Positions 30,392 to 33,654 of a stretch of 64,000 bases of DNA are shown here, piece by piece. The DNA is from Promethearchaeota archaeon (lineage in GTDB: Archaea; Asgardarchaeota; Lokiarchaeia; Sigyniarchaeales; SOKP01). The notes beneath the pieces are model-generated. The model was given only the letters and a program-made list of their open reading frames with translations, did not search any database and was not told where the DNA came from. The DNA is taken from the NCBI GenBank assembly GCA_029838195.1, contig JALGVJ010000006.1, positions 97,093 to 161,092 on the forward strand. The letters run 5' to 3'. Position 1 is the stretch's first letter. The number at the start of each line of letters is the position of its first letter. Made by a program: the position numbers and the translations under genes.

Positions 30392-32566
30392 ATGAACCGT
30401 ATTTGCCGGAAAAGAAGTATTCTATTCTGTCTCGTTGTACTTATTTTAATGGGTTTCTTAATAATTCCCGAATGGGGCAAAAAAAAAGAAATAATTGGTC
30501 CAGCTACGGCAAGTCAAGGAGTTAGTTTATTTACTGGAACGGAGACTAATGCCATTTCCATTAATGCAAGCGTATTGCCAAAAATAAATAATAGTGCGTT
30601 AAATTCTGCTTGGAAAGACACTACCATTGATATGATAATTATTACACCCGATAAATCTGGATTCATAAATGCCATTACTCCCCTCATGGAATGGAAAAAT
30701 CAAAAAGGCGTGACAACAATAATTTTATCTAATTTCTCTAAATATGAAGGGAAAGATACTTCGGAAAAAATTAGGAACATGATAAAATTCTATCATGAAA
30801 ATCATGGTACTCAATGGGTCTTACTGGCTGGCGATGCGGAAGAAGATTTAATTCCTATTAGAAAAGTATATAATCCGGACGTCGTGGAAGTTGGTCAAGG
30901 AGAAAGCGAATATGATGATTGGAGTGATTATTATAAACCTACCGATTTCTATTATGCGGATTTAGATGGTACGTGGGATGATAATGGAAATGGAAAATAT
31001 GGTGAATCCGCTCTCTATACAGGAAGTCAAGATGAGATAGAATGGACGCCTGATGTTTACGTGGGAAGATTTCCCGCAAGCAGTGCGAGTGACTTGGAAA
31101 AAATGGTAAATAAGACCCTCCAATATGAGAAGAATCCTTATGTGGGAACATGGATGAGTCGGATGTTATTAGCAGGAGGAGTTTCCTCCCTTTCGCCCTT
31201 GGAAGATGAGGCAAAATTAACAACGTATATTTGGCAACAACAAGTTCTTTCTGAAATGAATTTCACTCATTTATATCGCACGTCTTCTCCCTATGATCCT
31301 CCCACTCCTCCGGAGCCCAATCAACAACAGGGCTTGACGAGTAATAGCTTTAAAAATCATTTAAATCTGGGCTATTCTACTATTTTAATCGCGGGCCATG
31401 GCTTGCCCACCAAATTTAATGATTATTTTGGCGATATTTATACCAGTTCGGATACCAGCACTAATTATTACATGCCCTCCTTGATCTATTCGGACGCCTG
31501 CTCAACAGCCTCCTATGATAAAACTGACAACAATTTAGGAGAAATTCTTATTAAACGAGTAAATTCTGGCGCCATTGGATTCATTGGGGCCTTGAGAATC
31601 ACGTGGTATTTTGAAAATGATGAAGATTTTGAAATGCTAAATCGAGGAAATGCTAAATTATTCTGGGAAGAATTTTTCCTAAATGAAAAATATCAACCGG
31701 GAAGAGCCTTATATGATTCAAAAGTAGCCTACATGAATAGTTCTTACTTCACGGAAGGAAGAGCCTCCATGAATGATGAGTGGGAGAGAAAAAACGTGTT
31801 ATCCTATTGTTTATTAGGAGATCCCGAGATAGACATTTACACGGATCTTCCCATCGGCATAAAAAACCCCTTTAAGGGAACGATTTATGAATGCGAGCGG
31901 CTGTCGGTGGTGATCAGAAATGAGCGAAATGAAATCGTTCCGGATGCAAGAGTGCACATCTATACTGCTGATGGATATTCCCGAACTTTTTATTCAGATG
32001 CTCAAGGAAGAATTGAATTTCAATTACCTGCTGGAAGAAAATTATATAACGTGACCATTACCGGTCATGATATCCTTGCGTCCCACTTCAATTTTCGCAC
32101 TACCTCCGATAAGATCTCTCCAGAATGCGAAAATCCCATTCTCCAGCCTGTAAATCCCACGGTCTCCGATAATATAACTTTAGGAATCAACGCCGAAGAT
32201 CTACAAACGGGTATTGAAAGTGTTCATGCCGTGCTCTCCAGCGATAATTTCAAGAGTTATACTCTCCATGAATTACACCATGCCTCTAACAATTCTAATG
32301 ATGATTATTATCAAGGTAATATCGATAAATTAAAACCCGGAGAATACTCCATCTTAATATTAGCTCGAGATTTCGCCAATAATACCGAAATATATTACAA
32401 CCAATCCCTCATCCTCTCCATTCCAACCCCTATCATTCAACACGTGTTAAATAACTCGGTATATTTCATGTTTGGCTTTTTAGCACTCTCGCTCTATCTA
32501 ATTTATCACCACCTTAAAGCGTTCAAGAGATTTCAAGAAGAACTACCGGAAACCTCAACACCATGA
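30392..32566 (+). CDS. Secreted C25 (gingipain)-family cysteine protease
   Basis: A 724-residue protein with an N-terminal signal or anchor (about 10-25), a C25 peptidase domain and a C-terminal membrane segment (about 688-706). The domain starts with MIIITPDKSGFINAITPLMEWKNQKG, continues with WVLLAGDAEEDLIP, and has the His-Cys dyad in ILIAGHGLPTKF and LIYSDACSTASYD. C25 proteases are secreted caspase-clan (CD) enzymes. Ig-like beta domains follow (after 495). The layout places the protease outside the cell, anchored at its C terminus, where it could digest external proteins. Asgard genomes often carry such proteins. Confidence 0.9.
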   Translation: MNRICRKRSILFCLVVLILMGFLIIPEWGKKKEIIGPATASQGVSLFTGTETNAISINASVLPKINNSALNSAWKDTTIDMIIITPDKSGFINAITPLMEWKNQKGVTTIILSNFSKYEGKDTSEKIRNMIKFYHENHGTQWVLLAGDAEEDLIPIRKVYNPDVVEVGQGESEYDDWSDYYKPTDFYYADLDGTWDDNGNGKYGESALYTGSQDEIEWTPDVYVGRFPASSASDLEKMVNKTLQYEKNPYVGTWMSRMLLAGGVSSLSPLEDEAKLTTYIWQQQVLSEMNFTHLYRTSSPYDPPTPPEPNQQQGLTSNSFKNHLNLGYSTILIAGHGLPTKFNDYFGDIYTSSDTSTNYYMPSLIYSDACSTASYDKTDNNLGEILIKRVNSGAIGFIGALRITWYFENDEDFEMLNRGNAKLFWEEFFLNEKYQPGRALYDSKVAYMNSSYFTEGRASMNDEWERKNVLSYCLLGDPEIDIYTDLPIGIKNPFKGTIYECERLSVVIRNERNEIVPDARVHIYTADGYSRTFYSDAQGRIEFQLPAGRKLYNVTITGHDILASHFNFRTTSDKISPECENPILQPVNPTVSDNITLGINAEDLQTGIESVHAVLSSDNFKSYTLHELHHASNNSNDDYYQGNIDKLKPGEYSILILARDFANNTEIYYNQSLILSIPTPIIQHVLNNSVYFMFGFLALSLYLIYHHLKAFKRFQEELPETSTP

Positions 32567-32730: not shown

Positions 32731-32910
32731 TACCACACTACACGGCACTTAGCAAGCGTCTGGAAGTTAAACCTTTTCGCGTTGATTCAGTACTGCGATT
32801 GAAAATTCGTGGGAAATATCAAATCTGTAAATTCGTTTACGGTCATAGCGAAGAGGGATAATACCTGGTCCCATCCCGAACCCAGAAAACGCTGGAACTG
32901 TCGTGTGGTA
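32731..32910 (+). ncRNA. 5S rRNA precursor: leader/trailer stem with bulge-helix-bulge-like junction
   Basis: Leader and trailer of the permuted 5S pair with each other. The outer stem TACCACAC (32731-32738) matches GTGTGGTA (32903-32910) perfectly; GGCA/TGTC (32744-32747 with 32899-32902) and AGCGT/ACGCT (32755-32759 with 32889-32893) continue it. Then comes a 3-nt bulge AAA (32886-32888), a 4-bp helix CTGG/CCAG (32760-32763 with 32882-32885), and on the other strand a bulge AA(G) (32764-32766) before GTT/AAC. Bulge, 4-bp helix, bulge is the substrate of the archaeal tRNA splicing endonuclease; the second bulge is 2 or 3 nt, so this is a near-canonical or relaxed form. Cutting after the second base of each bulge joins CCCAGAA to GTTAAACC. 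Confidence 0.8.
32766..32887 (+). rRNA. 5S rRNA, circularly permuted gene (3' half before 5' half)
   Basis: The 3' half (GTTAAACCTTTTCGCG..., 32766-32831) precedes the 5' half (TTTACGGTCATAGCG...CCCATCCCGAACCCAGAA, 32836-32887). All five 5S helices form: helix I CTGTAAA/TTTACGG (32825-32831 with 32836-32842) closed by a TTCG loop (32832-32835); helix II GCGAAGAGG/CCTTTTCGC (32848-32856 with 32772-32780); helix III CTGG/CCAG around loop C (32865-32868 with 32882-32885); helix V TTGAT/ATCAA (32782-32786 with 32818-32822); helix IV CTGCGA/TTCGTGG-type with wobble pairs. Joining 32887 to 32766 rebuilds GAACCCAGAAGTTAAACC, the canonical archaeal loop C/helix III text. The mature product is inferred to be circular, about 122 nt. 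The 5S identity is certain from conserved loops; circularity is inference. Confidence 0.93.
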
Positions 32911-32930
32911 AAAATTCCTTTCATTTTAAA

Positions 32931-32950
32931 GATTTTTATATATTTTTTTC
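32931..32950 (+). terminator. T-rich run after the 5S gene
   Basis: GATTTTTATATATTTTTTTC follows the trailer stem by about 20 bp. Oligo-T runs end transcription by archaeal RNA polymerase, so this is the likely 3' end of the 5S precursor. Confidence 0.55.
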
Positions 32951-33141
32951 TCATAAAGTGTATCTTTCTTTTTTCCCAAATATTTTTTAGATGCGTATCT
33001 AGAGTTATTGAATTTAAAGAGGATAAGAATATTTATTTAAGAATAAAATATAAAAACCAATGAATTTAACGTGAATGCTTAATTATTAAACGATAATAAT
33101 AATCAAGTCCGAGAAAAAATGCCGTTAGAAAGGGCCTTTTC

Positions 33142-33654
33142 ATGTCAAACAAAGTAATTATATTTTTTAAATCCATGGGAAGATATTGGTTTCTTTTCTT
33201 ACTTCTTGCTTCCCTCATCGTCTTGTTTTATCATCAACAAGCAGCCTTTATCATGGGTATTATCACGGTTAGCCTTTACTTTCTTTCATTCATGCCTTCT
33301 CTGATTTTTCGGTTTCGCCTCTTAAAAAAAATGAAAAAACACGCAAAAATCGATGATGTCACGTTAGCCAGAATTTCTAAAAAACGCCTTAAGAAAATAA
33401 AAAATTTAATGTTTAAACTGGCAAACCATCAAGAAAAAAAGAGATGGTTGATAATTTATTTTAATAAAAGCTACGTGTTTTATGCTCCTTCCACCGTCAA
33501 GAAAATTAGAGAGCTTCTTCTTGAAGAGGGGGAAAAAAAAGATGAATCGCAAATCTTAAGCAAGTTAAAAGCGCATGATATTAAATCGAAAGAAGAATTA
33601 AGAGCAATTAAAGAAACTCTCATGAAGTTTAAAAAATTAGGGAACAATAAATAA
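33142..33654 (+). CDS. Membrane protein with cytoplasmic helical tail, unknown
   Basis: A 170-residue protein with two membrane segments near the N terminus (about 12-30 and 34-56), then a very basic region and a helical, Lys-rich cytoplasmic part (residues 60-170; ISKKRLKKIKNLMFKLANHQEKK). The tail could bind nucleic acid or the membrane surface by charge. No family is recognised. It follows the 5S rRNA gene on the same strand, about 190 bp after its T-run. Confidence 0.6.
   Translation: MSNKVIIFFKSMGRYWFLFLLLASLIVLFYHQQAAFIMGIITVSLYFLSFMPSLIFRFRLLKKMKKHAKIDDVTLARISKKRLKKIKNLMFKLANHQEKKRWLIIYFNKSYVFYAPSTVKKIRELLLEEGEKKDESQILSKLKAHDIKSKEELRAIKETLMKFKKLGNNK

Follow-up and report, generated by a model that had tools for sequence, protein, structure and literature searches.

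At positions 32766–32887 the window, by which we mean the whole stretch of 64,000 nucleotides analysed, holds a full archaeal 5S rRNA gene whose parts are permuted: the 3′ half is read first, followed by TTCG and then the 5′ half. The leader and trailer of this gene form a bulge-helix-bulge (BHB), in which AGCGT-CTGG-[AAG] (32755–32766) faces CCAG-[AAA]-ACGCT (32882–32893). On either side of the gene lie open reading frames, one ending at 32566 and the other beginning at 33142; an 84-residue frame that overlaps the gene (32809–33063) is probably due to chance. By eye only, an AT-rich element, TTTAATAAAT, is seen ∼ 30 nt upstream of the leader stem. The features are as follows.

32731–32759, forward strand: leader arm; starts TACCACAC (32731–32738), the perfect complement of 32903–32910, and ends AGCGT
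32755–32759, forward strand: AGCGT, leader strand of the outer BHB helix (from sequence and fold)
32760–32763, forward strand: CTGG, leader strand of the central 4 bp BHB helix, pairing with CCAG 32882–32885
32764–32766, forward strand: three-base bulge AAG; predicted endonuclease cut at 32765/32766
32766–32831, forward strand: 3′ half of 5S, encoded first; starts GTTAAACC, ends CTGTAAA; holds the 3′ strands of loop B and helix II, helices IV and V, and the 3′ strand of helix I
32832–32835, forward strand: TTCG tetraloop that closes helix I and connects the two natural ends (3′ to 5′) directly
32836–32887, forward strand: 5′ half of 5S, encoded second; starts TTTACGGTCATAG, ends CCCGAACCCAGAA; holds the 5′ strands of helices I and II, and helix III with loop C
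32882–32885, forward strand: CCAG; in the precursor the second strand of the central BHB helix, after maturation the 3′ strand of helix III
32886–32888, forward strand: three-base bulge AAA; predicted cut at 32887/32888, with sliding possible within AAAA 32886–32889
32889–32910, forward strand: trailer arm; begins with ACGCT (32889–32893), its strand of the outer helix, and continues as the 3′ side of the stem to GTGTGGTA (32903–32910)

The Rfam model RF00001 recognizes only the two halves in the window, at 26.1 bits (5′ half) and 18.4 bits (3′ half), both below its cut-off of 38 bits, and gives no full-length match in the ordinary order at ≥ 38 bits at the locus. We therefore used a covariance model (R2) made from seven ordinary Asgard 5S genes (L002–L008, from related genomes) that were re-ordered in silico at the same place. 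Since R2 is built from ordinary genes only, it tests the identity of the locus without circular reasoning. R2 matches 32766–32887 at 80.8 bits (E = 6e-15), the sole match in the window at E ≤ 1, and on the seven ordinary loci themselves it scores at most 44.5 bits, with halves only. With order disregarded, the locus thus has the sequence and the structure of a 5S rRNA, including helices changed on both sides. A second model (R1), made from 21 permuted loci, scores 137.6 bits here, the window locus being part of its training set. The preliminary description of this DNA had placed the 3′ half (32766–32831) before the 5′ half (32836–32887), had the TTCG joining the natural ends on helix I without a linker and had called for a covariance search with a re-ordered model; direct reading and the R2 match bear out this arrangement. 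Its outer limits, 32731 and 32910, are the ends of the leader/trailer stem, not of the 5S, and it did not mention the BHB at the outer ends. That the locus is a circularly permuted 5S rRNA gene is practically certain.

Helix I (CTGTAAA/TTTACGG) is a hairpin closed by TTCG, which makes this a 5S molecule without natural ends. As a 122 nt circle the sequence folds better than 299 of 300 shuffles (z = −3.0), and the precursor folds at −55.1 kcal/mol, better than 199 of 200 shuffles (z = −3.16). All five helices had been said to form. For helices I (7 bp plus TTCG), II, III and IV this holds in the lone-sequence fold of the circle, where 32783–32785 pair with 32843–32845 instead of forming the native helix V; the strands of helix V (32782–32786 with 32818–32822) are nevertheless fully complementary and the helix is kept in an alignment fold of the 21 loci. 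In that fold 21 of 32 pairs have changes on both sides, every helix being represented.

The permuted locus is the only 5S gene detected in its genome (G000). The preliminary description had pointed to an ordinary 5S gene elsewhere in the genome, or a rearrangement during assembly, as evidence that would count against it. RF00001, which gave a match in 11 of 14 control genomes, was run against all 94 contigs of the genome (4.5 Mb) and returned no ordinary 5S gene (0 matches); a hidden ordinary copy was rejected on this basis. A recent chance rearrangement was likewise rejected, because BLAST of the window locus finds matches in 22 of 56 genomes, its own included. There remains the suspicion of a pseudogene or an assembly artefact, with the true 5S gene in an unassembled or undetected place; the assembly is indeed a draft of 94 contigs with a completeness of 96.61 and a contamination of 7.87. 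Against this stand 124 genomes with R1 matches of ≥ 48 bits, the changes on both sides of pairs in every helix noted above, and seven single-contig assemblies that carry the permuted gene and no 5S above the RF00001 cut-off: G056 (98% complete), G065 (92%; 3,326,783 bases), G106 (70%), G107 (71%), G108 (96%), G142 (81%) and G143 (90%). Three extra ordinary 5S genes that occur beside permuted ones (in G021, G098 and G150) were rejected as second true genes, since each lies 43–135 nt behind a match to LSU_rRNA_bacteria. Rearrangement in assembly is thus very unlikely, and an artefact or pseudogene is barely credible. An origin in an organelle, as for the permuted mitochondrial 5S, does not apply to a 4.5 Mb archaeal genome, whose relatives carrying this gene are recorded as Lokiarchaeota. 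The three ordinary loci (L001, L189 and L188, respectively) are pieces of bacterial 23S–5S binned into archaeal assemblies; the 23S of L001 contains a group I intron (RF00028, 65.2 bits).

Of 227 genomes of the phylum, at least 131 have the permuted gene in the comparison with related genomes that had been suggested; they represent 22 of the 29 families, with 57 of 65 genomes in the window's own family. R1 matched 129 of the 227 genomes at E ≤ 1e-3. Five of these (G040, G042, G070, G211 and G215) scored 30–35 bits with an RF00001 ordinary-order gene at the same place and were set aside, leaving the 124. The permuted gene of G065 (L176) was found only with the filters off, and six more genomes were added when 30 of the 98 without a match were searched under laxer filters. 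The count of 131 is a lower bound, as the model search misses true cases (G065 was missed twice with filters on). RF00001 gives matches above cut-off in 64 of the 227 genomes. Three with the gene behind a bacterial 23S (G021, G098 and G150), one with an intron (G070) and one in which the match, at 38.4 bits, overlaps the permuted gene (G087) were removed, which leaves 59 genomes with an ordinary gene: 43 in family f8, seven in f21, six in f2, two in f27 and one in f28. Among the 227 genomes no family holds both true forms, the G070 contig excepted, and in 36 neither form was found with these leaky filters. By these searches the permuted gene is the commonest form of 5S in this archaeal phylum. 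We also scanned 84,980 species genomes with a pattern in the permuted order, which fits no break site but the commonest. It picked out 38 stretches, recorded as Lokiarchaeota/Lokiarchaeia (34), Odinarchaeia (1), Baldrarchaeum (1), Heimdallarchaeota (1) and ‘archaeon’ (1); many of the stretches come from assemblies already among the 227 and are not independent.

The BHB suggests how such a gene could give a functional RNA. The archaeal splicing endonuclease, known from tRNA introns, cuts a BHB after the second base of each bulge. Cutting and ligation at these standard positions would give …GAACCCAGAA|GTTAAACC…, an ordinary 5S sequence, and the joint CCCGAACCCAGAA|GTTAAACC has the usual loop B sequence of archaea (L007, an ordinary gene, reads GAACACGGTAATTAAGC). 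Both activities are encoded in the genome, the splicing endonuclease (PF01974) at three places (best E = 1.7e-28) and RtcB (PF01139) with E = 5.9e-166. The unconstrained minimum of the precursor contains the BHB, with a centre of 4 or 5 bp owing to the slide within AAAA; its outer helix is short in the window (4–5 bp), and further out the free-energy minimum pairs 32737–32747 with 32899–32909 rather than 32731–32738 with 32903–32910. The idea that the leader CTGGAAG is left over from a tandem duplication was rejected: a leftover would read CCAGAAG, and the leader is the complement. Because CTGG is the complement of the helix III 3′ strand and not a copy of it, we regard it as a pairing strand. 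By its gene order the locus belongs not with RF00001 but among the BHB-processed permuted RNA genes, with which it shares the 3′ part first, a 3 nt/4 bp/3 nt motif, and a genome that encodes the endonuclease and RtcB.

We propose that leader and trailer of the transcript pair into the BHB, and that the tRNA-splicing endonuclease would cut at AA|G (32765/32766) and AA|A (32887/32888). RtcB ligase would then join 32887 to 32766. As the natural ends are already fused, this ligation is predicted to yield a covalently closed circular 5S rRNA of 122 nt. CCAG would exchange partners, pairing with the leader CTGG before the cut and with helix III's own CTGG, within the 5′ half, after ligation. Since the natural ends form a closed tetraloop with no flanking sequence to trim, the circle would need no later opening and would itself serve the ribosome. 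Judged from sequence, splicing of the transcript at the BHB is very probable, and the circle is probably the main mature form of 5S; for the explanation as a whole, from permuted gene through BHB cleavage and ligation to a predicted circular 5S, we put the probability at roughly 84%.

Comparative data argue for the BHB. We tested the five outer and four inner pairs for covariation in 21 aligned loci (20 distinct sequences). Of the cells in these pairs 85.6% are paired, compared with 66.1% after shuffling (20 distinct sequences; the shuffle ignores relatedness), and covariation is 0.557 versus 0.215 (500 shuffles, kinship again ignored). On four of five measures none of the 500 shuffles was as high; the fifth, pairs changed on both sides (6 versus 4.5), was equalled by 69. 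Controls in which the BHB was slid along gave 19–41% paired. In the outer helix all five pairs have changes on both sides and 80% of cells are paired (20 distinct sequences), and in the central helix 92.5% are paired, one of the four pairs swapping C-G for U-A and the other three being near-invariant.

A strict search for a 3 nt bulge, a 4 bp helix and a 3 nt bulge was made in 48 loci from 20 families with the break at the common site. Behind the strict motif the outer helix has a mean length of 6.1 bp, compared with 2.3 bp in 1,912 between-family swaps of leaders and trailers, and it reaches ≥ 7 bp in 37.5% of the 48 loci versus 1.1% of swaps. A canonical joint together with at least two outer pairs is present in 32 of the 48 (the window and 31 others; joints read by eye), the joints being …GAACCCGGAA|GTTAAAC, …CACGGA|AGTTAAG or small variants. 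The clearest outer helices, of 10–15 bp, are found among others in L119, L121, L122, L123, L135, L136, L138, L140 and L141, the last from the family of an Odinarchaeia genome. The remaining 16 loci fail the strict search and are weaker cases. One (L115) has a canonical joint without an outer helix; the other 15 have no canonical joint by the strict rule (L022, L035, L116, L117, L120, L124, L125, L130, L132, L137, L139, L147, L176, L186 and L187). By eye several of these come near a fit at the right place (L132 as a tie, L120 in another register), and some fall short of the 4/4 rule alone or have an equally good place elsewhere. The fit is poor in family f4, and in family f15 the outer stem appears, by eye, to be set apart by a leader hairpin (e.g. 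CTAATGGCA/TGCCATTAG in L176).

The break is not at the same place everywhere. Most families examined have it in loop B after helix III; in G038 (family f3, L114) it lies on the other strand of loop B, and in five members of the window's own family, f1 (G143, G026, G033 and G031, L143–L146; G013, L027), it lies 5′ of loop C. By eye only, these shifted breaks are accompanied by motifs of the BHB kind.

In the permuted mitochondrial 5S the mature RNA is linear and permuted, with its break at loop B. A transcript that is trimmed and never ligated would likewise leave a permuted linear 5S broken at loop B, and this mitochondrial RNA has been given as an example from nature (Valach 2014, as referenced in PMC10085705). 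Such an outcome would, however, leave unexplained both the covariation of the BHB and its placement, whose joint restores the canonical loop B, and where the break has shifted (L143–L146, L114) fitting motifs are again seen by eye; we consider it highly improbable. Somewhat less so, though still unlikely, is that the circle, once formed, is opened again in the helix I loop to give an ordinary linear 5S, in the manner of permuted tRNAs, whose transcripts are described as circularized and then cleaved to the standard form (PMC10085705). The helix I loop has 4 nt in 34 of the 48 loci and is TTCG in 21, as picked by an automatic script that errs in a few rows (e.g. L019, L035, L132 and L185). Two things speak against reopening: in these loci the natural ends are separated by the 4 nt loop alone, where neither leader nor trailer offers a processing site, and the loop is often of the stable UUCG type. 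Genus g5 (L034, L036 and L147) has a hairpin of ∼ 30 nt in place of the tetraloop, and a loop of this size (L034) would be long enough for cutting.

The closest precedent for the proposed circular 5S comes from Thermoproteus tenax and T. uzoniensis, whose SRP RNA is permuted and circular (PMC4731332). Rearranged parts, a canonical gene that seemed ‘missing’, a BHB of leader and trailer and a proposed role of the tRNA-splicing machinery are common to both, as is a circular product (predicted for the 5S). The SRP RNA is a different RNA from two species, whereas the permuted 5S occurs in 22 families; the SRP circle (reads, Northern) and the endonuclease cleavage are reported as experimental findings (PMC4731332), whereas the 5S circle is predicted.

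Permuted tRNA genes resemble the permuted 5S in having the 3′ half before the 5′ half and a BHB at the outer ends. Their circle is cut once more at the natural ends and becomes linear, whereas the natural ends of the 5S here form a short loop. The permuted mitochondrial 5S is the same RNA, also permuted, but it is organellar and of bacterial descent, and we know of no BHB in it. Permuted tRNA genes are described from archaea and algae (PMC10085705). Circles of archaeal pre-16S and pre-23S rRNA are reported to arise via a BHB, EndA and ligation, with circular 23S in ribosomes and with circular 16S and 23S transcripts in Asgard archaea, and the background given there excepts 5S from this processing (PMC12918454). 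Those circles, as described, come from genes in ordinary order and are excised from an operon transcript, whereas the 5S gene is permuted. Circular 5S molecules were detected in Halobacterium and Sulfolobus, but that report treats the genes as ordinary, finds variable ends and suggests that the circles belong to degradation (PMC12558985).

To our knowledge no cellular (non-organelle) 5S in permuted order and no rRNA for which the order of the gene itself implies a circle has been known, and the present gene would be the first of each. Our literature search, with preprints and most subscription journals outside its scope, found no permuted 5S gene in archaea. Wu et al. report that 5S could not be predicted in two closed Heimdallarchaeum genomes (PMC8813620), and the permuted order likely explains why that 2022 study failed to find 5S in the phylum. 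Gene finders and ribosome models for the phylum need a permuted 5S model. With this gene one can test whether ribosomes put up with an endless 5S or draw benefit from it; the gene also opens the question of how a gene permutation spreads in an essential RNA and bears on the make-up of the ribosome in the archaea closest to eukaryotes.

In a tree of partial RpoB from 33 genomes (23 permuted, nine ordinary, one with an intron) ordinary 5S appears in five separate places, requiring at least five changes of state; the tree is of one gene, midpoint-rooted and with some weak nodes, and its well-supported branches alone force three changes for the ordinary group. We tentatively suggest, at slightly below even odds, that in Asgard archaea a circular 5S, which the tRNA-splicing machinery produces from a permuted gene, is ancestral and prevailing and that the linear gene was regained several times, five on the best tree here. 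If this is true, Asgard ribosomes carry a 5S without ends, and the linear gene was presumably regained toward eukaryotes too, if that line left from within the phylum.

The G070 contig (L177/L224, G070:C117:8277-8414) carries an ordinary-order archaeal 5S with a 23 nt BHB intron, CACG-[GAA]-CAGTC…GACTG-CGTG-[AAA], exactly at the common permutation site. A permuted gene may be what remains of an L177-like gene that was cut at the intron and re-joined at its ends. In the case of SRP RNA, PMC4731332 proposes descent from an ancestor that had a simple BHB intron. We do not accept L177 as proof of the path, because the intron-bearing 5S occurs in one of the 227 genomes (G070) and its host is uncertain, the RpoB of its contig being long-branched.

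Permutation classically arises by way of tandem copies. In G042, from a family of the same order, three ordinary 5S genes with the same score lie in tandem, 374–375 nt apart (L004, L014 and L016; G042:C1:1399892-1400758). Two permuted genes lie in tandem, 157 nt apart, at L133 (G111:C510:3670-3961). In G087 and G089 several contigs begin or end at or inside a permuted 5S gene (L180–L183), which suggests multiple copies that break the assembly. Five permuted loci (L023, L024, L030, L033 and L035) have an insert of ∼ 30 nt in loop C, which in most can be read as an extended hairpin (TCCGAA…TTCGGGA) and could be an expansion or an intron. A 152 nt ordinary 5S match, L148 (G211:C15:39893-40044), contains by eye an insert of ∼ 30 nt between loop B and helix II, again an intron or an expansion.
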